Source: an uncultured Opitutales bacterium
GTDB lineage: Bacteria; Verrucomicrobiota; Verrucomicrobiia; Opitutales; Seribacteraceae
NCBI GenBank assembly: GCA_943789375.1
Contig: CALSTX010000010.1
Span: 248,001 to 312,000, forward strand
DNA: 64,000 nt
Direction: 5' to 3'
Shown here: positions 1,918 to 12,848 of the stretch, in pieces
How positions within the stretch are numbered: position 1 is the first letter of the stretch
Layout: each line of letters begins with the position of its first letter
Translations under genes and position numbers: made by a program
Notes under the pieces: generated by a model
Databases searched by the model: none
Told to the model about the DNA's origin: nothing
Seen by the model: only the letters and a program-made list of their open reading frames with translations

Positions 1918-2427
1918 TTATGAAACTGTAGGGGGAAGTTTGCTTATTTCAATTCGTGTTTTTTGACTAGATCTAAAGTCTCTTAATTTTTCGGCAAGTA
2001 TTGTGTCTCCCATAGTTGCAAGCATAGAGATAGCAAAAAGGGCGGCATTAGTTGCTCCTGCCTCACCAATGGCAAATGTGGCTGTGGGAATACCTGCTGG
2101 CATTTGAACAATAGACAGAAGGGAGTCTACACCTTGAAGTGTTTTGGATTTAACAGGAACTCCAAGCACTGGAATTGTAGTTATAGCGGCAGTCATACCA
2201 GGAAGATGTGCGGCTCCCCCTGCCCCAGCGATGATACACTTTAGCCCACGATTTTCAGCTGTCTTGGCATAGTCGTAGAGAAGCTCAGGCGTTCTATGTG
2301 CACTCACAACTTTCGCTTCCCATTTTACCTCAAAATCTTCGAGGGTCTGAGTTGCTTTTTCTAAAGTTGGCCAATCGGATTGGCTTCCCATGATTATTCC
2401 TACGCACGGCGCATTTGAACTAGTCAT
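1918..2427 (-). CDS. purE: N5-CAIR mutase (class I PurE)
   Basis: PurE moves the carboxylate of N5-CAIR to C4 to form CAIR. The 169 residues match the bacterial class I enzyme. The substrate loop [12 protein letters not shown] is at residues 10-21, VVSAHRTP supplies the catalytic histidine, and [14 protein letters not shown] and PVLGVPV are the other signature loops. It is the first gene of a purE-purK pair on the minus strand. I see no strong Shine-Dalgarno sequence upstream of the ATG, as for many genes in this window. Confidence 0.96.
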
Positions 2428-2765: not shown

Positions 2766-2927
2766 TTACATCCATTCATTTGAAGTGAGTTTACCAACCA
2801 CCGCCTTCACTGGAGTGATTGCGGCCTTGGTCGCTAGGCCAATTGGCTTGGTTACCATGCTGGCACAAGTGCTAGTTAAGGAGGCACCGACTAACAGCAT
2901 AACAACCAATAAAACTTCTTTGCTCAT
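2766..2927 (-). CDS. Small signal-peptide-bearing protein of unknown function
   Basis: A 53-residue open frame. It has a lysine near the N-terminus, a hydrophobic stretch (VLLVVMLLVGASLTS), then a cysteine at residue 21 and a short basic/alanine-rich tail ending in EWM. This is the layout of a small exported protein or lipoprotein, although TST-C is not a canonical lipobox. A longer open frame on the opposite strand over the same bases (2704-3009) has less protein-like composition. It is not recognised, and no Shine-Dalgarno sequence is evident. Confidence 0.45.
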   Translation of the reverse strand: MSKEVLLVVMLLVGASLTSTCASMVTKPIGLATKAAITPVKAVVGKLTSNEWM

Positions 2928-3052
2928 TGCATTGACAAGTAGTAATCAGCTTGCCTTCCCAAACAAATTCTCATCCTCCCTTAATCTTTTCTATATTTTA
3001 ATTACCTAGAAATTTTCCGCAGATGACCGAAAATTCTTCCTTACTTTTTTAA

Positions 3053-3428
3053 CTCCACTTGATTGCCGCCCATATTGGATTGGCGACCAATTATTTGGCG
3101 ATTAAAATGTTGTTCCATCCGCGTGTACCCAAAAAGATACTTGGGCTTTCCTTTCAAGGCATATTTCCCAAAAGGCAAAACCAGTTTGCGGAAAAGCTGG
3201 GAACTTATGTGGCAAATGAATTAATCTGGATGAAAGATATCGGGTAAAGGATCGAAGAATTGTCTACCCAACCAGAAGCAATGGAAGAATCCATAGATGT
3301 GGAAGCCTTAGTTCGAGGAATTACTGATCGGATTTATGGTGCAACAATTTCGCTTCATCGAAAAAATTGGGGCGGCACTTGGTTTTTTTATCGGATGTGT
3401 CTGGGTTGCGTTGGTGTTAGCCATATGA
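3053..3428 (+). pseudogene. Decayed DUF445 (YheB/UPF0754-like) membrane protein
   Basis: Three pieces of one family can be read. The N-terminal part has IGLATNYLAIKMLFHP, matching the conserved DUF445 motif G-x-x-T-N-x-x-A-I-K-M-L-F, followed by FPKRQNQFAEKLG. After an in-frame TAA at 3245 the frame continues (RIEELSTQPEAMEE). A different frame from 3336 then ends with FIEKIGAALGFFIGCVWVAL, which is the family's usual C-terminal membrane helix. The middle of the protein is missing and an in-frame TAA precedes the first piece. Intact members are several hundred residues long, so this gene is dead. Confidence 0.75.
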
Positions 3429-3483
3429 GCCAGACTTTTTACCAGTTGCCAAAAAAGAAAGAACTTTTAATTTTTAAGGTTGC

Positions 3484-4782
3484 ATGAATGATTTGAGCCT
3501 TGCCCTCACCCAGGTGTGGGAAAACACCTTCCAGTTTTGGACGACTCCATCTGCTCGGATTCAGGCGGCAGTCATCGGACTTTCCATTTTTATCGCCTGG
3601 CTAAGTAGCCAAAGAGCCAAGCCGCAAATCCTTAAATTATTACATGAACCGACCGGACCGGCATGGATTGAAGGTGCGATCTGTATCCTTGCACAGCTCT
3701 TACTTCCCCTCTTCCTTCTGCTTTGCTCCCTTCTGGGTAGAGGCGTACTCGATCGCTTTGGGTTTGCATCGGTAGATTTGCTCAACCCCTTTGTTCATGC
3801 CACGACTGCTTGGTTGATCTACCGTTTGGTGGCAGGCTTAACCCACAACCGATTTTGGCTTCGATTAGCAGCTGTATTGGCTTTCGGAATGGCCGCTCTT
3901 CAAAGCTTTGGCCTCCTTGAACCCACTTTTGATTTTCTAAGTTCTGCGTCCTTCTCAATTGGCAAAAGCACTCTGTCCGTGCTCGATTTGGTAAATGGAA
4001 TATTCATATTACTTTTTTTATTGTGGATGAGTTCCCTTTTGGGAAGTGCGGGAGAAGCACGTATTCGCGAACTCCCCAACCTACCACCCTCCTTACAAGT
4101 CCTGCTTGCCAAGGTTATCCGGGTATTTTTGATTTTTATAAGTTTTCTTGTGGCGATGTCCACCATCGGGCTCGACCTCTCCTCCTTTGCCCTCCTTGGG
4201 GGTGCTATTGGTGTGGGTATTGGATTTGGTCTGCAAAAAGTAGTTTCGAATTTGGTAAGCGGATTGATTCTCTTACTCGACCGATCGATCAAACCCGGGG
4301 ATGTGATTGAAATTGACGATACTTACGGTTGGATCAATTCCCTTCGAGCCCGCTATGCATCTATTATCACTCGCGATGGTAAAGAGCACTTAATTCCCAA
4401 TGAAGACTTAATCACAAATCGCGTGGTTAATTGGTCCTTTAGTGATAAGAATATCCGAGTACGAGTGCCAGTTGGTATATCTTATGATTCCGACCCTCGC
4501 AAAGCCATGAAACTTTGTGTGGATGCCGCCCTTTCATCCGGGCGAGTGCTTAATGATCCTGAACCCCGTTGTCTCGTTAGCGGGTTTGGAGATAACTCTG
4601 TGAATCTTGAACTAAGGTTTTGGATCAATGATCCATCCAACGGAGTGGGAAATGCACGGAGTGAAGTATTACTAAGCATATGGGATCGTTTTCGGGAAGC
4701 TGGAATCTCGATACCCTTCCCCCAGCGAGACTTACACTTACGCAGTGTTCCGGAAGGATTTGGTGAAAGCCTTGAAAAGTAA
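3484..4782 (+). CDS. Small-conductance mechanosensitive channel, MscS family
   Basis: An inner-membrane channel that opens under membrane tension and vents solutes during hypo-osmotic shock. The protein has 432 residues. Several predicted membrane helices precede residue 240. The pore helix signature GGAIGVGIGFGLQKVVSNLVSG is at about 239-260, followed by DRSIKPGD and the beta domain (GWINSLRARYASIITRDGKEHLIPNE) and the MscS C-terminal alpha/beta domain (RVRVPVGISYDSDP). The extra N-terminal helices make it longer than E. coli MscS, nearer to YnaI/YbdG-type paralogues. It starts just after the DUF445 remnant; there is no operon partner. Confidence 0.93.
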   Translation: MNDLSLALTQVWENTFQFWTTPSARIQAAVIGLSIFIAWLSSQRAKPQILKLLHEPTGPAWIEGAICILAQLLLPLFLLLCSLLGRGVLDRFGFASVDLLNPFVHATTAWLIYRLVAGLTHNRFWLRLAAVLAFGMAALQSFGLLEPTFDFLSSASFSIGKSTLSVLDLVNGIFILLFLLWMSSLLGSAGEARIRELPNLPPSLQVLLAKVIRVFLIFISFLVAMSTIGLDLSSFALLGGAIGVGIGFGLQKVVSNLVSGLILLLDRSIKPGDVIEIDDTYGWINSLRARYASIITRDGKEHLIPNEDLITNRVVNWSFSDKNIRVRVPVGISYDSDPRKAMKLCVDAALSSGRVLNDPEPRCLVSGFGDNSVNLELRFWINDPSNGVGNARSEVLLSIWDRFREAGISIPFPQRDLHLRSVPEGFGESLEK

Positions 4783-4814
4783 AAAGTTACTTATTTTGAC
4801 CTGGTTCACAGAAT

Positions 4815-4990
4815 TTAGCTAAGCTGCCTTCCAAGCGTGCCAATCGGACCTAAAAGTAAGCCCAAGTAAGAAACCCATGACCCCTTTATCTTGCCTGAAG
4901 CCAACTAACACTCCAAGTGTACCGAAAATAATGCAAGATATTACTACGATATTCTTCTTACGCCTCAGGGACTCCTTCCCTCTTGTCTTC
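4815..4990 (-). pseudogene. Frameshifted remnant of a small two-helix membrane protein
   Basis: One frame reads RRKKNIVVISCIIFGTLGVL followed by GFRQDKGVMGFLLG. A +1/-1 shift near 4853 then restores LLLGPIGTLGRQLS and a stop at 4815. The joined tail GFLLG-LLLGPIG is a typical motif of short bacterial membrane proteins with two helices. No good start codon remains in the first frame. This looks like a decayed gene, not a functional one; its identity beyond the motif is unknown. Confidence 0.45.
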
Positions 4991-5425
4991 GAGAACTCGC
5001 TTATTGGCGTTTACCAATTCGCAAAGCGTAGTGCCTTCGGGTAGCATTGATACCGCTATTTTTGTATCATTTAGTTGTTCGGGTGTGAGTGAAGTTCTTG
5101 TCTCTCGTCATTCGCTATCCTTGTATGGATTGGGTTTTTCTCGTTCCCACTTTTGTACTAGCTCATGACATTCCCATTCAGAATCGCACTCTTTGTCTAT
5201 GCGTTTATCTTCACCTTTGGGAGTTGCTTGCACCCTAAACTTCTTGTAACCTTTTTCATACCTGAGAATGCTGACCCTAAACACAACCTTTCCAAATTTG
5301 TTCCGACTTTCGATTGTGAACCCTTTGGTTTTTAGAGTTTTTGCATTCTTAGAGTTAGCAAAACATTTAGCAAATACAAGAAAACTGAGGGGAGATTGAG
5401 GGAAGCAATTAACTATTTCCTGCAA
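4958..5425 (-). pseudogene. Interrupted fragment resembling the N-terminal part of a tyrosine recombinase
   Basis: A frame starting at 5425 runs 105 residues to an in-frame TGA at 5108-5110. It then continues in the same frame to 4958. The first part (TKGFTIESRNKFGKVVFRVSI, then KKFRVQATPKGED) and the continuation (LTPEQLNDTKIAVSMLPEG) resemble the arm and SAM-like core-binding start of phage-type integrases in related bacteria. The catalytic R-H-R-Y domain is absent. It lies about 35 bases from tRNA-Arg, a common integration target. The family call rests on my recognition of the pattern and is uncertain; it could be a lineage-specific hypothetical protein. Confidence 0.4.
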
Positions 5426-5460
5426 GGTTGACGCCAGTCGTCAGTATTTATTAGGCTTAC

Positions 5461-5535
5461 GCTCCTGTAGTTCAATGGATAGAACATTGGTCTCCGGAAC
5501 CGAAGATCTGGGTTCGACTCCCAGCGGGAGTGCCA
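5461..5535 (+). tRNA. tRNA-Arg (anticodon CCG)
   Basis: A full cloverleaf can be folded. The acceptor stem GCTCCTG pairs with CGGGAGT. The D arm is GTTC...GAAC and the anticodon stem TTGGT/ACCGA closes the loop CTCCGGA, giving anticodon CCG for CGG codons. The T arm contains GGTTCGACTC. The discriminator is G and the 3' CCA is encoded. A recombinase-like remnant flanks its 5' side and a GC-rich sulfatase gene its 3' side. Confidence 0.95.
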
Positions 5536-5721
5536 GCATCTAAGCGGGTTGTAGCGTTTCGAGTTAATCGCATCAAGAAAATTTTTCGTTAATTGGGCAA
5601 AAAAATTTACACTGCTATTTGAGACTAACTAGAAAAACAAATAAATTCTTAACAATTTTATGAAAGCGACTCATAAACTTGCACCTCCTCTAAACATTCG
5701 GTAAAAAAAGGCTACGATAGA

Positions 5722-7329
5722 ATGATAAGTACTAAAGAAGCTTTAGGAAAATGGCACATCCTGACACACCTTTGTCTCGGTATGATTATGGTGGCGGTGC
5801 TCTGTTGTTCGACGCTCGCAAAAGAGCTTGAGCTCGAGCGCAAGCCGAATATACTGTTCATTTTCTCAGACGACTTGTCTTATCGTGATTTGAGCAGCTA
5901 CGGACAAGAGCAGTTCCTGACTCCCAATCTCGATAATCTGGCAATGAACGGCATCCGGTTCACTCAGGCGTATAGCGGTTCGTCGGAATGCGCCCCATCC
6001 CGGGGAAGCCTGATGACCGGAATGCACATGGGGCATTGCCGTATTCGAGCAAATAGTTCAGTACGGGGACAGGACCACCTGTTGAGTGAGGATATTACGA
6101 TGGCCGAGGTGGTTAAAGGGGCCGGGTACACCACTTGTTTTATTGGCAAGTGGGGCATTGGATTACCCGGCACCGAGGGAGCTCCTGACAAGCAGGGATT
6201 CGACATCTCGTACGGATACTACGATCAGGCACGGGCTCATGGCTTCTTCCCCCACTACCTGATGAGAAATGGGAAGCCGGAGCCGATTCCTGAGAATTAC
6301 GGATTCAACATGAAGCGTGTTAAAACCTACAATGGGCGCCCGCTAGACAGACTGGACGATGTGATGAACATATATGACAAGAACGGGCGCCTCGTTCCTG
6401 ACGGCATCCCGGATGCTGACGCGGCAAAATACTCCGAGAACCTCTTCCAAAAGGAGGCCCTTAATTTCATATCGGAGCACAAGGACAAGCCTTTCTTCCT
6501 CTACTACGCAACCCAACTTCCCCACGGCCCGTGTATCACACCCGACCTTGGAGCCTACAAAGACAAGCCTTGGGGCCTGAAGCACAAGGAATGGGCAGCC
6601 ATGCTCGGCCACCTGGACCGTGGTGTTGGAAGGATGGTTGACCTGATGGAGCAGCTTGAGATCCTGGATAACACCATAATCTTCTTTGCCGGTGACAATG
6701 GATATAGCCAGTGGGGGTACTTCGGTAGACCTCTACATGAGGATGATGCTCTGTTCAAAAACAAAGGTCCATGGCCAAAAGGGAAGTTCGCTTCAACCCA
6801 TGAAGGTGGTATGCGAGTTCCCTTCTTCGTCTATTGGAAGGACAAGATTAAGGCAGGAGAAAATGACCATATCTGCACCCTGTATGATGTTTTGGCAACG
6901 GCGGCCGATCTTGTCGGTGTCATGCCCCCGAAAACAGACGGCATCAGTTTTGCACCGACATTACTCGCAAGGCCAAATGAGCAGCGGACACACGAATACC
7001 TGTACTGGGAAAATGGAACATTTTCGCAGCACGCGCAAAGCGTACGCATGGACCAATGGTGGGCATACAGTGAACATCCCTCCAAGCCGGTAATGTTGTA
7101 TGACATTTCCCAGGACCTAGACTGCCGAAACGATTTGGCAAGAGACCATCCGGACATAATTAACAGAATCTCACAGATCTTTACCGAGGCCCACACGGAC
7201 AGCGAATGGTATGTGAACCCAGGTGAAAGCAAAATGCAGATCGCTGCGAAGCGCAAGAAAGCGGTCGCTTTAGGAGGTATGCAGAGGTCCACCAGTGCAA
7301 ACTCGACCTACAGAGGACGGACCGAATAA
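5722..7329 (+). CDS. Secreted sulfatase, formylglycine-dependent type I
   Basis: Hydrolyses sulfate esters, probably on a marine polysaccharide, in the periplasm. Residues 1-34 form a signal peptide. NILFIFSDD (metal-binding D50, D51) opens the alkaline-phosphatase-like fold. CAPSRGSLMTG at 90-100 is the C-x-P-S-R site whose Cys90 must be oxidised to formylglycine, and FAGDNGYSQ supplies metal ligands D325 and N326. The length of 535 is typical. The coding sequence is visibly richer in G and C than its neighbours, which suggests horizontal transfer. It sits 3' of tRNA-Arg and near GH16 and clan-A-like glycosidases. Substrate specificity cannot be read from sequence. Confidence 0.93.
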   Translation: MISTKEALGKWHILTHLCLGMIMVAVLCCSTLAKELELERKPNILFIFSDDLSYRDLSSYGQEQFLTPNLDNLAMNGIRFTQAYSGSSECAPSRGSLMTGMHMGHCRIRANSSVRGQDHLLSEDITMAEVVKGAGYTTCFIGKWGIGLPGTEGAPDKQGFDISYGYYDQARAHGFFPHYLMRNGKPEPIPENYGFNMKRVKTYNGRPLDRLDDVMNIYDKNGRLVPDGIPDADAAKYSENLFQKEALNFISEHKDKPFFLYYATQLPHGPCITPDLGAYKDKPWGLKHKEWAAMLGHLDRGVGRMVDLMEQLEILDNTIIFFAGDNGYSQWGYFGRPLHEDDALFKNKGPWPKGKFASTHEGGMRVPFFVYWKDKIKAGENDHICTLYDVLATAADLVGVMPPKTDGISFAPTLLARPNEQRTHEYLYWENGTFSQHAQSVRMDQWWAYSEHPSKPVMLYDISQDLDCRNDLARDHPDIINRISQIFTEAHTDSEWYVNPGESKMQIAAKRKKAVALGGMQRSTSANSTYRGRTE

Positions 7330-7390
7330 TCTTCTGTAGGCGACATTCAAAAGGCCGTGCCTGAGGAGTGACGATCTTTAAAAGATTTTA

Positions 7391-7651
7391 GTGCTTCTTA
7401 GAAGAGTGCTTCTTTTAATCATTTGGACTTTTCCATGCACTGGTTTCTTATTTGCTACTTGGACGAATCCGAATTTTGGATATGAAATTGAAGGTAGAGG
7501 TGCATTTTTTGTAATTATGGTTATCGGTGGATTCATACTAGCTTCTGCCATAGCTCATCGAATTTTAAATTGGTTATTTCAAACTCCTCAACCAATTTAC
7601 TGGAGTCGCATAGATAAGTTTTTTGGTTTTGGGAAGGATTCTAGAAAATAG
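7391..7651 (+). CDS. Small two-helix membrane protein, unknown function
   Basis: 86 residues from a GTG start. A first hydrophobic segment (VLLLIIWTFPCTGFLFATW) is separated by a short polar loop from a second (FFVIMVIGGFILASAIAHRI), followed by a polar C-terminus ending KDSRK. I do not recognise a family. It is AT-rich, in contrast to the sulfatase 60 bases upstream, so it is probably not part of a sulfatase operon. Confidence 0.5.
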   Translation: MLLRRVLLLIIWTFPCTGFLFATWTNPNFGYEIEGRGAFFVIMVIGGFILASAIAHRILNWLFQTPQPIYWSRIDKFFGFGKDSRK

Positions 7652-7883
7652 GTGCAAGCGTACGAAAAAAGTTATAAAAAGTTGAAAATTACATCTTTGT
7701 GTTTTAACGATATTATCAATTTCAAGTTGTGGAGCAGCACAATTAAGAAAGTACAACCCTTACCTCAATTGATGTGATAGTATGTTTCTTATTTGGATAA
7801 CTTGAAGCAAACATCCTCTTCTAGTCACGAATGGGTGCCCAAATTAATTTAATCTGTATGACCATATCGAATAAAAAAATATT

Positions 7884-8093
7884 ATGATTGAAGAAAAAGA
7901 ATATAATAAAAAAGGAAATAAACTTGGAATGTGTGCCCTATCACATGCAGTGGTTAGCTGGGGGTGTATGCTCGGAGTCCTTCCCTTAGGACCGCTAGTT
8001 TGGCTTCCTATACTTTTAGTTTCTGCGGTTACTTCTGTTCTTAGCCGGAAGACAGCTTTGGGCAAGGTGGCTATCGTTCTGCTCATTCTCTAA
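7884..8093 (+). CDS. Small hydrophobic protein, unknown function
   Basis: 69 residues starting MIEEKEYNKKGNK. Two hydrophobic segments follow (HAVVSWGCMLGVLPLGPLVW and LPILLVSAVTSVL), then a basic turn and a third short one (GKVAIVLLIL). It may be an inner-membrane protein with two or three helices. There is no recognised family, and its short length and lack of partners leave doubt that it is expressed. Confidence 0.4.
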   Translation: MIEEKEYNKKGNKLGMCALSHAVVSWGCMLGVLPLGPLVWLPILLVSAVTSVLSRKTALGKVAIVLLIL

Positions 8094-8174: not shown

Positions 8175-9239
8175 TTACTTTTTGCTAAGTTTAAAGACTC
8201 GCACATAATCAACATACATCTTAGAAGGGAGCTGTTTATCCCTAACTGGCCCACCGGCCCACTGTGCATTTCGCATCGCATAATTTAAATTAACTTGTGC
8301 GTTTAAATTTTTAGGAACTTTCCGTGTCCACTCAAAATCTTCGACTTTTCCATAAGTTCGGTTGTGCACCTTGCCACCGGAAAACTTAAAATAAGGTTCA
8401 GACTTCCATGCAGGTCCGTCTTGGGCAAGATACCAAAAGAATTCACTATCAGTAACCCGTAAACCAAAGGTAAAAAACTCGTAAAAATTGACTGTGTTTC
8501 CTTTGATTTGGTGACCATGTCCGTGATGGGCTTTGTAGACTCTTTGCTTAATAAAGAAATGATCATCTGAACGTTTTACCATAGATTCCTTAGGGATACC
8601 TTGATGAATTTCTTCAGTTCTAAAATCGTGCCACCACAATCCACTCCATAATCTCGTTTTTTGCCTGTCAGCAATAAATTCGAACATATCAATTTCCAGG
8701 AGATCTTCGGGCGACCAGTCTCCAACTTTGTTAGAAATCGTCCAAAAAGCACCATACCCCGCATTATTTTGTGGAAGTTTACAACGCAGTTCTAAATACA
8801 TGTTATTGCGAAGTGCGTAATCTTTCCGGGTATGCACCCCACCGGAGGAATAATTAAAAGTTCTTTCTTTTGACCATGTCTTGCCGGTAATAGGCATGGT
8901 TTCCCGCTTTTGGGTAAAGATAAGTAGTCCATTATCCAAAGTAATATTTTCTAATTTGTAAATACAATCTACGCCCTCGTTTTGAAGATTCTTTTTATTG
9001 ATTCCCAATCCCCAGATTTCTTGGTTAAGCTCAGATCCGGTAAACTCATCTCCAAATGCATACTTGGAGCCTGGTGGGCCTTCAATAGACATCTTGAAAC
9101 TTGCATTTAATGCAAGAGACAAGATGTAAAAAGTAAATGCCAAAACTCCAAGCCATTTCAATTGATGTGGTTGAATATTAATTCTACCTAGCGTAATAAA
9201 AAGGAGAACAAATAAAGGTCTTTTGGAATGATTATTCAT
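8175..9239 (-). CDS. Glycoside hydrolase family 16 (agarase/carrageenase-like)
   Basis: A beta-jelly-roll endo-glycanase acting on beta-linked galactans or glucans. An N-terminal hydrophobic segment (residues 28-46) is a signal or membrane anchor. FGDEFTGSELNQEIW at 62-76 is the usual GH16 entry. The catalytic motif EIDMFE at 182-187 gives E182 as nucleophile, D184 and E187 as acid/base. The strand MYVDYVRVFKL closes the domain. The EID-x-x-E form with the beta-bulge is the laminarinase/agarase/kappa-carrageenase type. The gene is 120 bases from a second glycosidase on the same strand and 850 bases from the sulfatase, pointing to a sulfated galactan, which is inference. Confidence 0.88.
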   Translation of the reverse strand: MNNHSKRPLFVLLFITLGRINIQPHQLKWLGVLAFTFYILSLALNASFKMSIEGPPGSKYAFGDEFTGSELNQEIWGLGINKKNLQNEGVDCIYKLENITLDNGLLIFTQKRETMPITGKTWSKERTFNYSSGGVHTRKDYALRNNMYLELRCKLPQNNAGYGAFWTISNKVGDWSPEDLLEIDMFEFIADRQKTRLWSGLWWHDFRTEEIHQGIPKESMVKRSDDHFFIKQRVYKAHHGHGHQIKGNTVNFYEFFTFGLRVTDSEFFWYLAQDGPAWKSEPYFKFSGGKVHNRTYGKVEDFEWTRKVPKNLNAQVNLNYAMRNAQWAGGPVRDKQLPSKMYVDYVRVFKLSKK

Positions 9240-9359
9240 TCCAATATTTAATAATGACGCTTTTCTCTCGTCAACCGATCTTCTTAAAACTGAAAATACG
9301 ATTTTGGGGAAGAATTGACAGAGTAAATTATTTTCTAAAAGTACTGATTTTAGGCTAGG

Positions 9360-11102
9360 TTAGTGTTTTGGAGACTCAAAAACTAAGGAAGTTAAGCGAC
9401 GGGTATCGGGTAAGCTTACAGTTAGTAGTCCGTCTGTCACAACTACAAGAGAGGAGTTTCCAGATTGTACATTTTTACGATAGCCAGTTTTAGCTTCGAC
9501 ATCTTCTGTTATCCATCTTACCAAAATCTGTTCGCCTTCACTGAAACCTTCCCCTGTAAACTTTTTATCTTGATTATAGCGAGCCCCAATCTGAATGGTT
9601 GCAGGAATCGATATCGTTAAATTATTTGGTGCTTCTTTGGCTTCTCGTTTGGCTAAAAGGACAATAAATCGTTTTGCGGTTCGGTCATATGAACTCATCC
9701 TCATCAATTTATCTTCTTCTATTCCTGTAATCGTTATGTCATTTCCCTCTTCTCCAGCAATTGCGTGATGGATACATTCGTTTTGGCCGGCAGACAATTG
9801 TGCATACCAACGCCATATGTAATAGTGTGTGTGATTGGGGTCGTCTGGTACTGCATAGGGAGCACCAAAATCGCTACCATTAAATGAGGGAGAATTATTT
9901 TTGATGACTAGTTTATTGTCATTCCCAATCAGGTTTAACTTGCGGGTAGCAATCGCAGCACCACCGGTAAAGTTAGGGTTTAATTTTTCACCCAATACTG
10001 CAAGCTGACCATTGTAGTCTAGCCGTTTGGTCAGACCCATGGACCAGGCACTGTGATTGTCTGACCATGGTAGATTCGTTAAACTTAAACCCCGCTGAAT
10101 GCATTCCCCAAAGAGTCGCAAGGTTGATTCTACTGTATCACCACTGCCTTCTGGCCCGTGTGGTGTACGTTCGCCATCCCAGCAGATCCAGCTCTCGGCC
10201 GCCACTAATCCTTTGTCGTCATAGCCCTCTTCCTTGAGTCTCTGGTCCATATAGTCAAGTTGATCCCATACAGAACTTACCCAAGTGAGGAGACCACCTC
10301 CCCAGCCGTTATTAAAGTCGCTGAGATTAATGGCAAAATTATCAATCAGACCCATAAGTTCAGGGTAATCCAATTGAATATCGTACCATTTTTTACAATT
10401 GCGTGATGGGGATAAGCCAGCAGTAGAAACTATCTTCTTATCTCCTGTTTCTTCTGAGTAGTCACGAATTGCTCGAGCTGCCGGTAACATAAACAACTCG
10501 ATTAACTCATCCCATGTACCTTCCCAATACTTTGGATGATTAGCTTCGTGAAAGATAGAATAGTAATCAACATCTTCACCAAACCATGTAACGGTAGCTT
10601 TAACCATATCGTAGATGGCTTGTTCATCGGGCGGGACTTTGTTAAAATCTGCATAGCTTGTTCCTCCATTCATCCACAATGGCACTTGCCACAAAACTAA
10701 TTCCGTTTTGATCCCTTTGCGTTTGCACAGTTTAACTGCATGTCGAATCGCTAAGGCTTCTTTGGATGGATAATTCTTAAAATCTAGGTTTTTCTCCTTT
10801 GGAAGAGTATGAAGCGACATAAACCAAAAGCTAGCATAACTGGCTATACTACCAATTTCTCTTTCTATGTCGGCTACAGAACTTTTTGGTCTACTTTCAT
10901 AGGGTTGCCAACGAAAACCTACATGTAAATGATTCTTGGTAGCCTCGTAAGCAGAAGGTAAGCTTTTATATTCGAAAAGGTCACTCATACCTGGACCCAC
11001 TCGGTACTTGGGATTTTCAGGTACAAGGGTTTCCACACCATGGCAGATATTTTTCGCACTACTTACTAGTACTACCAATAATAGATGAAGGAAAAACTTC
11101 AA
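9360..11102 (-). CDS. Secreted glycoside hydrolase, probably clan GH-A barrel
   Basis: 580 residues with a signal peptide (about residues 1-22). The central part reads like a (beta/alpha)8 barrel. TELVLWQVPLWM (133-144) is a strand with substrate-binding tryptophans. YSIFHEANHP places E186 where clan GH-A enzymes have the acid/base after strand 4. GLVAAESWICW puts E303 as candidate nucleophile after strand 7. The C-terminal 150 residues look like a beta-sandwich accessory domain. I cannot assign a numbered GH family. It is upstream of the GH16 gene on the same strand with a 120-base gap, so possibly cotranscribed. Confidence 0.7.
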   Translation of the reverse strand: MKFFLHLLLVVLVSSAKNICHGVETLVPENPKYRVGPGMSDLFEYKSLPSAYEATKNHLHVGFRWQPYESRPKSSVADIEREIGSIASYASFWFMSLHTLPKEKNLDFKNYPSKEALAIRHAVKLCKRKGIKTELVLWQVPLWMNGGTSYADFNKVPPDEQAIYDMVKATVTWFGEDVDYYSIFHEANHPKYWEGTWDELIELFMLPAARAIRDYSEETGDKKIVSTAGLSPSRNCKKWYDIQLDYPELMGLIDNFAINLSDFNNGWGGGLLTWVSSVWDQLDYMDQRLKEEGYDDKGLVAAESWICWDGERTPHGPEGSGDTVESTLRLFGECIQRGLSLTNLPWSDNHSAWSMGLTKRLDYNGQLAVLGEKLNPNFTGGAAIATRKLNLIGNDNKLVIKNNSPSFNGSDFGAPYAVPDDPNHTHYYIWRWYAQLSAGQNECIHHAIAGEEGNDITITGIEEDKLMRMSSYDRTAKRFIVLLAKREAKEAPNNLTISIPATIQIGARYNQDKKFTGEGFSEGEQILVRWITEDVEAKTGYRKNVQSGNSSLVVVTDGLLTVSLPDTRRLTSLVFESPKH

Positions 11103-11340
11103 GATGCTGAATCTATATGCATTGTATGATATAAGTACAAGCTTAAGCTTGTATGTTGCTGTTACATCTTAAGATTTACGATATTTTAAAAGTACTTCCG
11201 AGGGTTCAGGGCATTACCCTTAATTTGATATTAAGAATTATGAAATATTTAACTTGATCATAACAGATATATGTCAATAATTATTTAGAGTTATTACACA
11301 CAAAGTCTGTAAAAAATAGTCATGAATTCCTTTAAAACAA

Positions 11341-11865
11341 ATGAGTTACACAAAAGAAATAGAGATAATCAAATATAAAAATATAGATCTATTTGATAAT
11401 AGTAATGCAAAGTTCGATCTCTTTTGTAAGTCATTAAACCAAGATATTAAATTGTTGAAATTACAACTTAAATTACTCAGGCGACAAAAAGAAAATGAAA
11501 CTTATGTGTTTAAGAATTTCGAATTCTGGAAGTTACTTATTGAAAATTTTCCAAAGACTGATTTCCCAAAGGTTGATGGCAATTCTCGTTATTTTTATAA
11601 AAAAAATGGGAAAAACTGTTTTAAATTTAAATATTTTGTCTCAGACATGCTCGAGGCAAAGGCGATGGTAGATTGTCCTGAGAATCCCCGCAGTCGGTAT
11701 TCAATGTTGAAGTCTGAACTTTTAAAATATCTTCAGTCTGAAAAGAAGCGTAATATACTGCCGAAATTTAAACAAAAAGAATCGCTTATGCCTACTCCTA
11801 AAAAATCCACTTTTGATGATGAAAGTTTACTTTCGAATCGTTGGGACAATTGGATGAGTAGTTAA
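11341..11865 (+). CDS. Lysine-rich hypothetical protein
   Basis: 174 residues, strongly basic and AT-rich, with a probable helix-forming stretch (DIKLLKLQLKLLRRQKENE) and a C-terminus ending RWDNWMSS. There are no membrane segments, signal peptide or recognised motif. It stands alone between a glycosidase gene and a DUF3050 gene with about 200-base AT-rich gaps on both sides. The continuous frame in AT-rich DNA, where stop codons are common, supports a real gene, possibly acquired. Confidence 0.5.
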   Translation: MSYTKEIEIIKYKNIDLFDNSNAKFDLFCKSLNQDIKLLKLQLKLLRRQKENETYVFKNFEFWKLLIENFPKTDFPKVDGNSRYFYKKNGKNCFKFKYFVSDMLEAKAMVDCPENPRSRYSMLKSELLKYLQSEKKRNILPKFKQKESLMPTPKKSTFDDESLLSNRWDNWMSS

Positions 11866-12092
11866 ATTCTTGAATTTTAATTTAGATATACAGAATCTAA
11901 AATTTAGATTAGATTTTGTATAAAATATTGTTATACATGTTTTTAACTTATAAAAATTTAGTGTAAATATTTAGTGTAGAAATTTTTATTGAGTAAAAAT
12001 ATACAGTTGCATTTCATTCTACTCTACTAGTCATCAACTATTCCTTCTGTTTGGTATTTGGGTAAATGGTTTTTTTTGTTAACCTTCATCTT

Positions 12093-12848
12093 ATGGATAT
12101 TTCTTCATTAACAAATCTAAAGCGTGATCTTGAATGTCATCCAATTTTTACTCGGATCAATTCTCTCTCGGAATTAAGGATATTTATGAGTCACCATGTG
12201 TACGCTGTGTGGGATTTTATGTCTTTACTCAAAAAACTACAACTTGACCTTGTCCCAAGTGGATCACCGTGGCTTCCTAACCCCAATGGTCTCCTCGTCC
12301 GTTTCATTAATGAAATTGTAATGGAAGAAGAATCTGATGTCTCCTTTACACAGTCAAATGATACTTCCTATAAAAGTCATTTTGAAATATATTTAGACTC
12401 TATGAGGGAAGTTAATTGCCCTACGATCAAATTACAGAGATTTTTACAACTTGTAAGTGCTGATGGAATAGAGGTCGCCTTACAATCATCAGACTTACCT
12501 GAACCCTCTCGTTTGTTTATGCAGCATACTTTTGAAACCATCTCTCAGGGTAAAACTCATGAAATAGCGTCTTCATTTGCAATTGCTCGAGAAAGTGTTG
12601 TTCCTTTGATGTTTAAGCGAATTCTTTCTCAAACAGATTTAACATCAAGTGACGTTCCTGTTTTCAAGTATTATCTTGAAAGGCATGCAGTCTTAGACGG
12701 TGATCACCATGGACCAATGGCTCATCGTCTTCTTGATAATTTATGCGATGGTGATTGCCTTAAGGAGAAAGAGGTAATTTCTCAGGCTGAACGTAGTATA
12801 CAAAAGAGGATTGAATTTTGGGATGGCGTTCTGGACGCCTTACCTTGA
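12093..12848 (+). CDS. DUF3050 family protein, heme-oxygenase-like fold
   Basis: 251 residues from the ATG at 12093; a frame extension to 12066 adds nine hydrophobic residues that are probably not translated. LKRDLECHPIFTRINSLSELRIFMSHHVYAVWDFMSLLK at the N-terminus and RHAVLDGDHHGPMAHRLL near residue 210 carry the conserved histidines and acidic residues of DUF3050. That family is related to the TenA/heme-oxygenase-like helical bundles. The metal or substrate and the pathway are unknown. No operon partner is visible. Confidence 0.75.
   Translation: MDISSLTNLKRDLECHPIFTRINSLSELRIFMSHHVYAVWDFMSLLKKLQLDLVPSGSPWLPNPNGLLVRFINEIVMEEESDVSFTQSNDTSYKSHFEIYLDSMREVNCPTIKLQRFLQLVSADGIEVALQSSDLPEPSRLFMQHTFETISQGKTHEIASSFAIARESVVPLMFKRILSQTDLTSSDVPVFKYYLERHAVLDGDHHGPMAHRLLDNLCDGDCLKEKEVISQAERSIQKRIEFWDGVLDALP

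Follow-up and report, generated by a model that had tools for sequence, protein, structure and literature searches.

The 64,000-nucleotide stretch analysed here (the window; positions 248,001 to 312,000 of contig CALSTX010000010.1 from an uncultured Opitutales bacterium, or G000:C10:248001-312000 in our numbering, where G, C, and L stand for genomes, contigs, and loci) raises the question of why a dead integrase gene lies on the 5' side of a tRNA-Arg(CCG) gene (5461-5535, +) and points away from it, with a sulfatase gene on the other side. An earlier note, made from the letters alone, had seen an old island at this tRNA; the old integration site, the dead integrase, and the foreign gene all stand, whereas the usual 3'-end geometry does not, and the sulfatase is not shown to be cargo. 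We consider that the feature is quite probably the right-hand end of a decayed integrative element that replaced the 5' half of the tRNA gene (type A). The host genome comprises 2.73 Mb in 27 contigs and is 92% complete, and the genomes used for comparison are mostly fragmented assemblies. The tRNA-Arg(CCG) gene, one of two tRNA genes in the window, is the sole copy found for the CGG codon in this genome.

The fragment at 4958-5425 (-) spans about 155 codons with one internal TGA. Scans against Pfam and PHROGs gave no recombinase match, and its identity was revealed instead by intact homologues. When the fragment was searched against 57 genomes, the host's own included, at E values up to 1, 20 of them gave matches, mostly weak. 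The best match, in G021 (E = 2.2e-33, 51% protein identity), contains stops, as do those in G022 and G026, which were also among the good matches. Open frames whose N-termini match the fragment were found in G008 at the same site (420 residues; E = 1.6e-14, 39%) and in G028 (443 residues; E = 1.8e-10, 38%), and weaker matches were found in G046 (383 residues, E = 2.2e-4) and G055 (481 residues, E = 0.004). The 420-residue protein of G008 matches phrog_1, 'integrase', at 1.8e-21, and PF00589 at 5.3e-5 (23.5 bits, under the curated cut-off of 27.1). Since the G008 protein is an integrase and the fragment matches its N-terminus, we assign 4958-5425, by homology, to the broken N-terminal third of a tyrosine integrase. 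The stop-interrupted, integrase-like fragment of the earlier note is thereby upheld, and the similarity to recombinases on which its proposal depended is present in the G008 and G028 homologues. A divergent integrase beside an intact tRNA was likewise found in G021, G022, G026, G028, G046, and G291, and at the tRNA-Thr locus of the host genome itself. Among viral contigs searched with the G008 integrase, two stretches fitted the pattern, and neither encoded a relative.

Relatives display both the undisturbed locus and its disturbed forms. Among 30 loci fetched with the tRNA-Arg(CCG) gene or its half (L104-L132 and L140), DUF3050 lies within about 150 bp after the tRNA in 15, and purE stands directly before the tRNA in five, with a gap of about 130-245 bp (L105, L113, L120, L121, and L122). 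The corresponding distances in the window are 6.5 kb from the tRNA to DUF3050 and 3 kb from purE to the tRNA. In G021, nucleotides 1-38 of the tRNA (92%) lie 2.2 kb to the left of the intact tRNA, with an integrase remnant in between, and DUF3050 follows directly after the intact tRNA. Displaced 5' halves were also found for tRNA-Arg(CCT) in G046 (L135; nucleotides 1-40 at 100%, at a distance of 4.6 kb; the integrase is intact) and for tRNA-Arg(CCG) in G291 (L189; nucleotides 1-38 at 100%, 7.0 kb away); the integrase frames beside these two tRNAs are open and whole (382 and 386 residues, respectively). The 3' half is displaced in G008, where an intact integrase is followed by this half and then by DUF3050, and in G001, where it lies 1.3 kb downstream of the intact tRNA. 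G014 has an integrase to the left of the intact tRNA. On the right, at a distance of 3.1 kb and ahead of DUF3050, lies a copy of nucleotides 32-75, and between the intact tRNA and this 3' relic a G008-like integrase has left its C-terminal part (E = 1.5e-4). The displaced nucleotides 1-40 of G014 are on a separate contig.

These relics and the flank comparisons below led us to conclude that two kinds of insertion have used tRNA-Arg(CCG): judging from the sequences, the 5' half is exchanged by type A and the 3' half by type B. In the relatives, the displaced halves end at points that place the crossover in the anticodon loop. No displaced 5' half was found in the window, G022, G026, or G028. 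The direct repeat of the tRNA 3' end that the earlier note wanted sought was looked for in the window, and nothing beyond chance-like matches emerged; G014, G001, and G008 have such a repeat at the same locus. Neither half of the tRNA was found as a copy in the window (best other match, E = 0.16), and an 18-nucleotide stretch of the MscS gene (4454-4471) that matches the tRNA 3' end at 78%, seen among the best 20 of 45 repeat families, is taken as chance.

The flanks were compared as 80-bp pieces containing no tRNA letters, each scored against 15 undisturbed loci with 300 shuffles. The DNA upstream of the G021 5' relic is of the undisturbed type (best score 36, reached by 0 of 300 shuffles); the corresponding values were 44, against G013, for the G014 5' relic and 29 for the intact tRNA of G001, again with none of 300 shuffles reaching them. 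Upstream of the intact tRNAs of G021, G014, and the window, the sequence is unlike the undisturbed loci (best 19, 21, and 18, reached by 173, 180, and 135 of 300 shuffles, respectively), and that of G026 (best 23, 21 of 300) was counted with these. On the downstream side, high scores were obtained after the 3' relics of G014 (56 against G013) and G008 (92), each with 0 of 300 shuffles, and undisturbed-type sequence follows the intact tRNA of G021 (best 30, 7 of 300; mean 18.9, 1 of 300). The scores downstream of the intact tRNAs of G014, G001, the window (best 19), and G026 were reached by 84, 106, 149, and 243 of 300 shuffles, respectively. The right arm of the window resembles, in near register, those of G014 (42, 0 of 1000 shuffles), G026 (25, 0 of 1000), and G001 (25, 2 of 1000), and the arms of G014 and G001 resemble each other (45, 0 of 1000). 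A further search for the old upstream region used queries that also held 40 nucleotides of tRNA, and the 80-bp test repeats it with the tRNA letters removed. The scores of 52-86 that such mixed queries gave for the G021 relic were not used as proof of its upstream region.

The host genome holds another type A island, 8.0 kb long, at its tRNA-Thr(CGT) gene (G000:C6:56319-64356; L139:1320-9357), with displaced nucleotides 1-38 at 97% and with a frameshifted integrase and a serine resolvase inside. The downstream flank of this tRNA matches that in G026 (162; maximum of 500 shuffles, 29). The region upstream of the relic matched no congener (20 against G026; shuffle maximum, 26) and is similar to the region upstream of the intact tRNA-Thr (45; maximum of 500 shuffles, 29), which suggests two successive type A insertions. 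A similar element end follows the 5' half of tRNA-Thr in G015. Halves of tRNA-Thr(CGT) were noted in congeners at G015:C260:2437-2474 (5' half) and G018:C147:7395-7443 (3' half). This gene, too, looks like a repeated target.

In order to survey the order, a profile of five integrases was used at E = 1e-20, instead of the G028 integrase, which alone at E = 1e-25 matched only G008 and G028 among 372 genomes. The profile matched 168 of the 372. We examined 66 loci, namely the first 65 places among the matches listed and the host's own tRNA-Thr locus. In 24 of them the integrase is closely preceded by a tRNA of the same orientation; one of these, L215, also has a second, divergent tRNA farther off. 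A divergent intact tRNA was found in six (L134, L135, L136, L139, L189, and L206), half of which have a displaced 5' half (L135, 100%, 4.6 kb; L189, 100%, 7.0 kb; L139, 97%, 8.0 kb); at the remaining three, no more than 5.5 kb of contig is left past the integrase. The other 36 loci have no tRNA within 900 bp. Nineteen of these have, no more than 700 bp from the start of the integrase, a T-loop motif of a divergent tRNA, and by eye the motif mostly comes after a tRNA half that starts in the anticodon arm (type B); a same-direction motif was seen in three and none in 14. Among ten type B loci whose far ends were checked, one has an intact tRNA copy (L192, tRNA-Ala, 8.4 kb).

The integrases of the two polarities were placed on one tree (LG+G4 without mixture; 50 integrases, comprising 49 of the 66 survey loci and L123, which is a long row). 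Seventeen loci were left out by hand, following no formal rule (L197, L199, L212, L220, L221, L224, L227, L228, L230, L234, L236, L238-L241, L243, and L244). Type A and type B loci interleave on this tree, with a minimum of four changes between them, and L134 (A) and L130 (B) are sisters with support of 100/100. L134 and L206 were typed A without a relic, and the type A label of L136 (tRNA-Thr(TGT)) is doubtful, as a tRNA-Lys-like sequence stands between integrase and tRNA. Two integrases of G087 (L198 on C42 and L199 on C43) have the equal score of 292.2 and the same adjoining 18-20 bases, and abut 3' halves of two different tRNAs (Arg- and Pro-like by eye), as if one element type used several tRNA isotypes. 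The 7.0-kb type A island contains a sub-threshold match to REP_ORF2-G2P (L189:4188-4925, E = 4.6e-5), and a protein in the 4.6-kb island (L135:13065-13712), with a weak DUF match only, is Rep-like by eye; these small islands may be integrated small replicons.

In the relatives, as the ends of the displaced halves show, a type A element carried its own tRNA 5' half, together with an upstream region, beside a divergent integrase gene. Upon integration, the working tRNA came to combine the 5' half of the element with the 3' half of the host, and the host's previous 5' half was displaced, along with the old upstream region, to the far end of the element. For the window we propose the following course of events. 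It probably underwent the same type A event, followed by loss of the far end with its relic and by decay of the integrase; because neither the window nor G026 retains a relic, this event is inferred by homology. In addition, DUF445-MscS would have been inserted, a 3'-replacing type B insertion would probably have occurred on the other side of the tRNA, and a foreign sulfatase cassette would have arrived. From its position, the arm at 5426-5460 is expected to hold the promoter from which the tRNA is now transcribed. If the element end were deleted, the tRNA would lose its upstream region and its 5' half, and this cost may be the reason why a fragment persists after the element's death. The features concerned, in window coordinates, are as follows.

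1918-2427 (-): purE, host flank; immediately precedes the tRNA in five relatives.
3059-3487 (+): broken DUF445 gene (PF04286, 3.8e-10 over 3059-3247); no DUF445 match at the G026 locus.
3484-4782 (+): gene for an MscS-type mechanosensitive channel; only match in the host genome at E = 0.001.
About 4815-4957 (-): frameshifted small membrane peptide, after the integrase remnant, as the earlier note had it.
4958-5425 (-): remnant of a tyrosine integrase gene, the N-terminal part, interrupted by a single stop; G008 has an intact homologue at this site.
5426-5460 (+): element-side arm adjoining the tRNA; aligns with G026 to about -300.
5461-5535 (+): tRNA-Arg(CCG), a presumed composite with its 5' half from element A and its 3' half probably from element B.
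5536-5598 (+): right arm; similar to the sequence that follows the intact tRNA of G014, with a weaker likeness to those in G001 and G026.
5599-7384 (+): apparently acquired cassette with the sulfatase gene (5722-7329), by composition and foreign DNA match.
7391-8093 (+): two small open reading frames (ORFs; 7391-7651 and 7884-8093); no significant family match.
8175-9239 (-): gene common to G026 at the same place (84% DNA identity); no Pfam match.
9360-11102 (-): gene of unknown family, common to G026 at the same place.
11341-11865 (+): small ORF, common to G026 at the same place.
12066-12848 (+): DUF3050 gene, host flank (PF11251, 1.5e-81); about 150 bp or less from the tRNA at 15 loci in relatives.

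The likenesses of the right arm and the C-terminal integrase remnant of G014 indicate that the window tRNA probably has element sequence on both sides and is a composite of two dead elements. Several observations weigh against this course of events. The tRNA halves are alike in sequence and no relic is left, so that the composite step is one we infer. No 5' relic was found in the window or G026. The old upstream region was sought in both in ten comparisons, which gave no significant remnant: one of them, G016 against the window, scored 25, above the 95% shuffle level of 23 and below the shuffle maximum of 28, and none surpassed the maximum. The DNA similarity between the upstream sides of the window and G021 is weak (23), and their homology is judged from the integrase fragment, 51% identical at the protein level. 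The downstream flank of the G001 3' relic is unlike undisturbed loci (18, 259 of 300 shuffles) and does not fit, and the right arm of G026 is unlike that of G014 (14, 532 of 1000). In a consensus scan, the sequence immediately before the window tRNA showed no sigma-70-type promoter, and a weak terminator-like hairpin was called at 5427-5445. Finally, the closest intact integrase, that of G008, sits at a junction of the opposite polarity. The broader proposal that tRNA-Arg(CCG) was rebuilt piecewise from two dead elements, one giving the upstream region and 5' half and the other the 3' half and downstream flank, that one integrase lineage switches between halves, and that host dependence protects the element ends is offered tentatively.

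The sulfatase (5722-7329, +; 535 residues; PF00884, 1.6e-48) is the strongest composition outlier of the 34 window genes of at least 200 residues (codon fit z = -4.97), and its GC content at third codon positions is 0.602 compared to a window-gene mean of 0.348, in agreement with the GC-rich gene described in the earlier note. Its best long matches in the genus show 38-42% identity (about 52% for partial ones), and a 128-residue C-terminal match in G053, of the same order, shows 62%. Among 387 genomes of the phylum, the closest sequences, 78-84% identical, are in two genomes of one other family; the named matches are 'Opitutales bacterium isolate AM_1811' (86% protein) and Lentisphaera marina (78%). 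The AM_1811 contig (L250, 4.9 kb) matches 5599-7384 at the DNA level (88%), has different cassette neighbours, and contains no tRNA. From composition and this match we regard the cassette 5599-7384 as horizontally acquired, of distant bacterial origin, in a separate insertion. The sulfatase is not shown to be cargo of this integrase, because its gene stands across the tRNA from the integrase, is missing at this site in G026, where the integrase remnant is kept, and has other neighbours in L250. Its absence from the G026 site also shows that it is not a fixture of this place among relatives, a point on which the island of the earlier note depended.

These facts bear on the reading of the locus as an ordinary island at the tRNA 3' end with the sulfatase as its cargo. 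Such an island would account for the foreign composition of the gene, the 6.5 kb of extra DNA between the tRNA and DUF3050, and the resemblance of the right arm to that of G014 and, weakly, of G001, where the 3' half is displaced. However, the integrase occupies the 5' side of the tRNA and is directed away from it, a search of the window turned up no second tRNA 3' half, the cassette starts at 5599, just past the arm, and is differently surrounded in L250, and the right side of G026 holds other genes and no sulfatase. We therefore regard this reading as unlikely. Still less credible is that the element carried a complete tRNA-Arg(CCG), as some actinophages do, and that the host gene was never rebuilt. 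G014, in which both halves are displaced around the intact tRNA, the 5' half on a separate contig, would agree with such an element, but G021, G046, G291, and the host's own tRNA-Thr locus show a displaced 5' half only, with the intact tRNA at the integrase end; moreover, DUF3050 directly follows the tRNA in G021, a flank of the undisturbed type, and both tRNA flanks of G014 are unlike undisturbed ones. That the integrase pseudogene came to lie beside the tRNA by chance or an unrelated rearrangement, as the lack of a relic in the window might allow, is very improbable, given that the divergent arrangement recurs in six genomes and at the host's tRNA-Thr locus and that 5' relics occur in G021, G046, G291, and at that same locus.

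The remaining sequence around the tRNA can be compared with G026, the nearest relative by purE (95%). G026 keeps the integrase remnant and the genes of 8175-11865, and the two genomes share the integrase N-terminus, arm, and tRNA at 75.6% over 5263-5561. The sulfatase, DUF445, and MscS are all absent at its tRNA-Arg(CCG) site; a blastn search of window 2798-5262 against G026 gave no match, nor did the MscS channel match the G026 genome at E = 0.001. In the window, the broken DUF445 gene and then the host genome's only MscS match occupy 3059-4782, at the tRNA site, and a DUF445-MscS pair was seen at other sites in all three congeners looked at (L141-L143). The ORFs at 7391-7651 and 7884-8093 had no match at the compared loci of relatives. 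The genes at 8175-11865, between the tRNA and DUF3050, are common only to G026 among the compared loci, and it is possible that they are cargo of an older element. The gene at 8175-9239 is presumably GH16-like, a label that no Pfam match backs.

Islands that replace the 5' half are a known, rare kind, and both the acquisition of a sulfatase and a decayed island are ordinary. According to the Islander database (PMC4383910), 3760 of 3919 islands have a 3' fragment and 159 a 5' fragment, and the site is centred on the anticodon in 2083. The islands with a 5' fragment described there and those in the relatives are alike in having a tyrosine integrase, the intact tRNA at one end, and the 5' fragment at the other. 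The case here differs in that the window copy is dead, its relic is gone, and a 3'-replacing element probably lies on the other side, and in that both polarities interleave on one integrase tree. In the window, a tyrosine integrase gene (its N-terminal third only) and an intact tRNA at the integrase end were found; the displaced 5' fragment was found in neither the window nor G026, and for this reason the window copy is filed as a remnant related to these islands and not as a complete member. Standard islands with a 3' fragment share the site and the integrase family, whereas the side of the integrase, its direction, and the replaced half are all opposite.

According to a review, rebuilt bacterial tRNAs use the original promoter with very few exceptions, and among archaea the use of the 5' half is unique to pTN3-like integrases. 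The pTN3-like elements (PMC8371274, PMC5495485) resemble the type A elements in that the rebuilt tRNA is parted from its original promoter, and differ in that integration splits their integrase gene, whereas the type A integrases of L135 and L189 are whole beside the tRNA. tRNA-dependent lysogeny (PMC10865867) likewise involves a tRNA-gene site and host dependence on tRNA sequence borne by the element; there, however, the phage carries a tRNA gene and none is rebuilt at the junction, whereas here the junction is the tRNA. G014 could be read as such a case, yet both of its tRNA flanks look like element ends. Within the titles, abstract openings, and passages of open-licence papers that the search covered, nothing was seen to describe related integrases that switch polarity, or islands of this kind in Opitutales.

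This case adds the occurrence of both polarities among related integrases, a probable composite tRNA, and persistence after the death of the element. Bacterial islands that take over the promoter side of a tRNA are described as rare; here, five genomes of one order were found with a displaced 5' half, and both Arg and Thr tRNAs are affected. Because type A and type B integrases are close relatives, as the sisters L134 and L130 illustrate, the switch between 5' and 3' replacement is open to direct study. The proposal also offers a simple reason why dead integrase ends last beside essential tRNAs, namely that the cell depends on their sequence. If it is true, host dependence would shield element ends from deletion long after the element itself has died.
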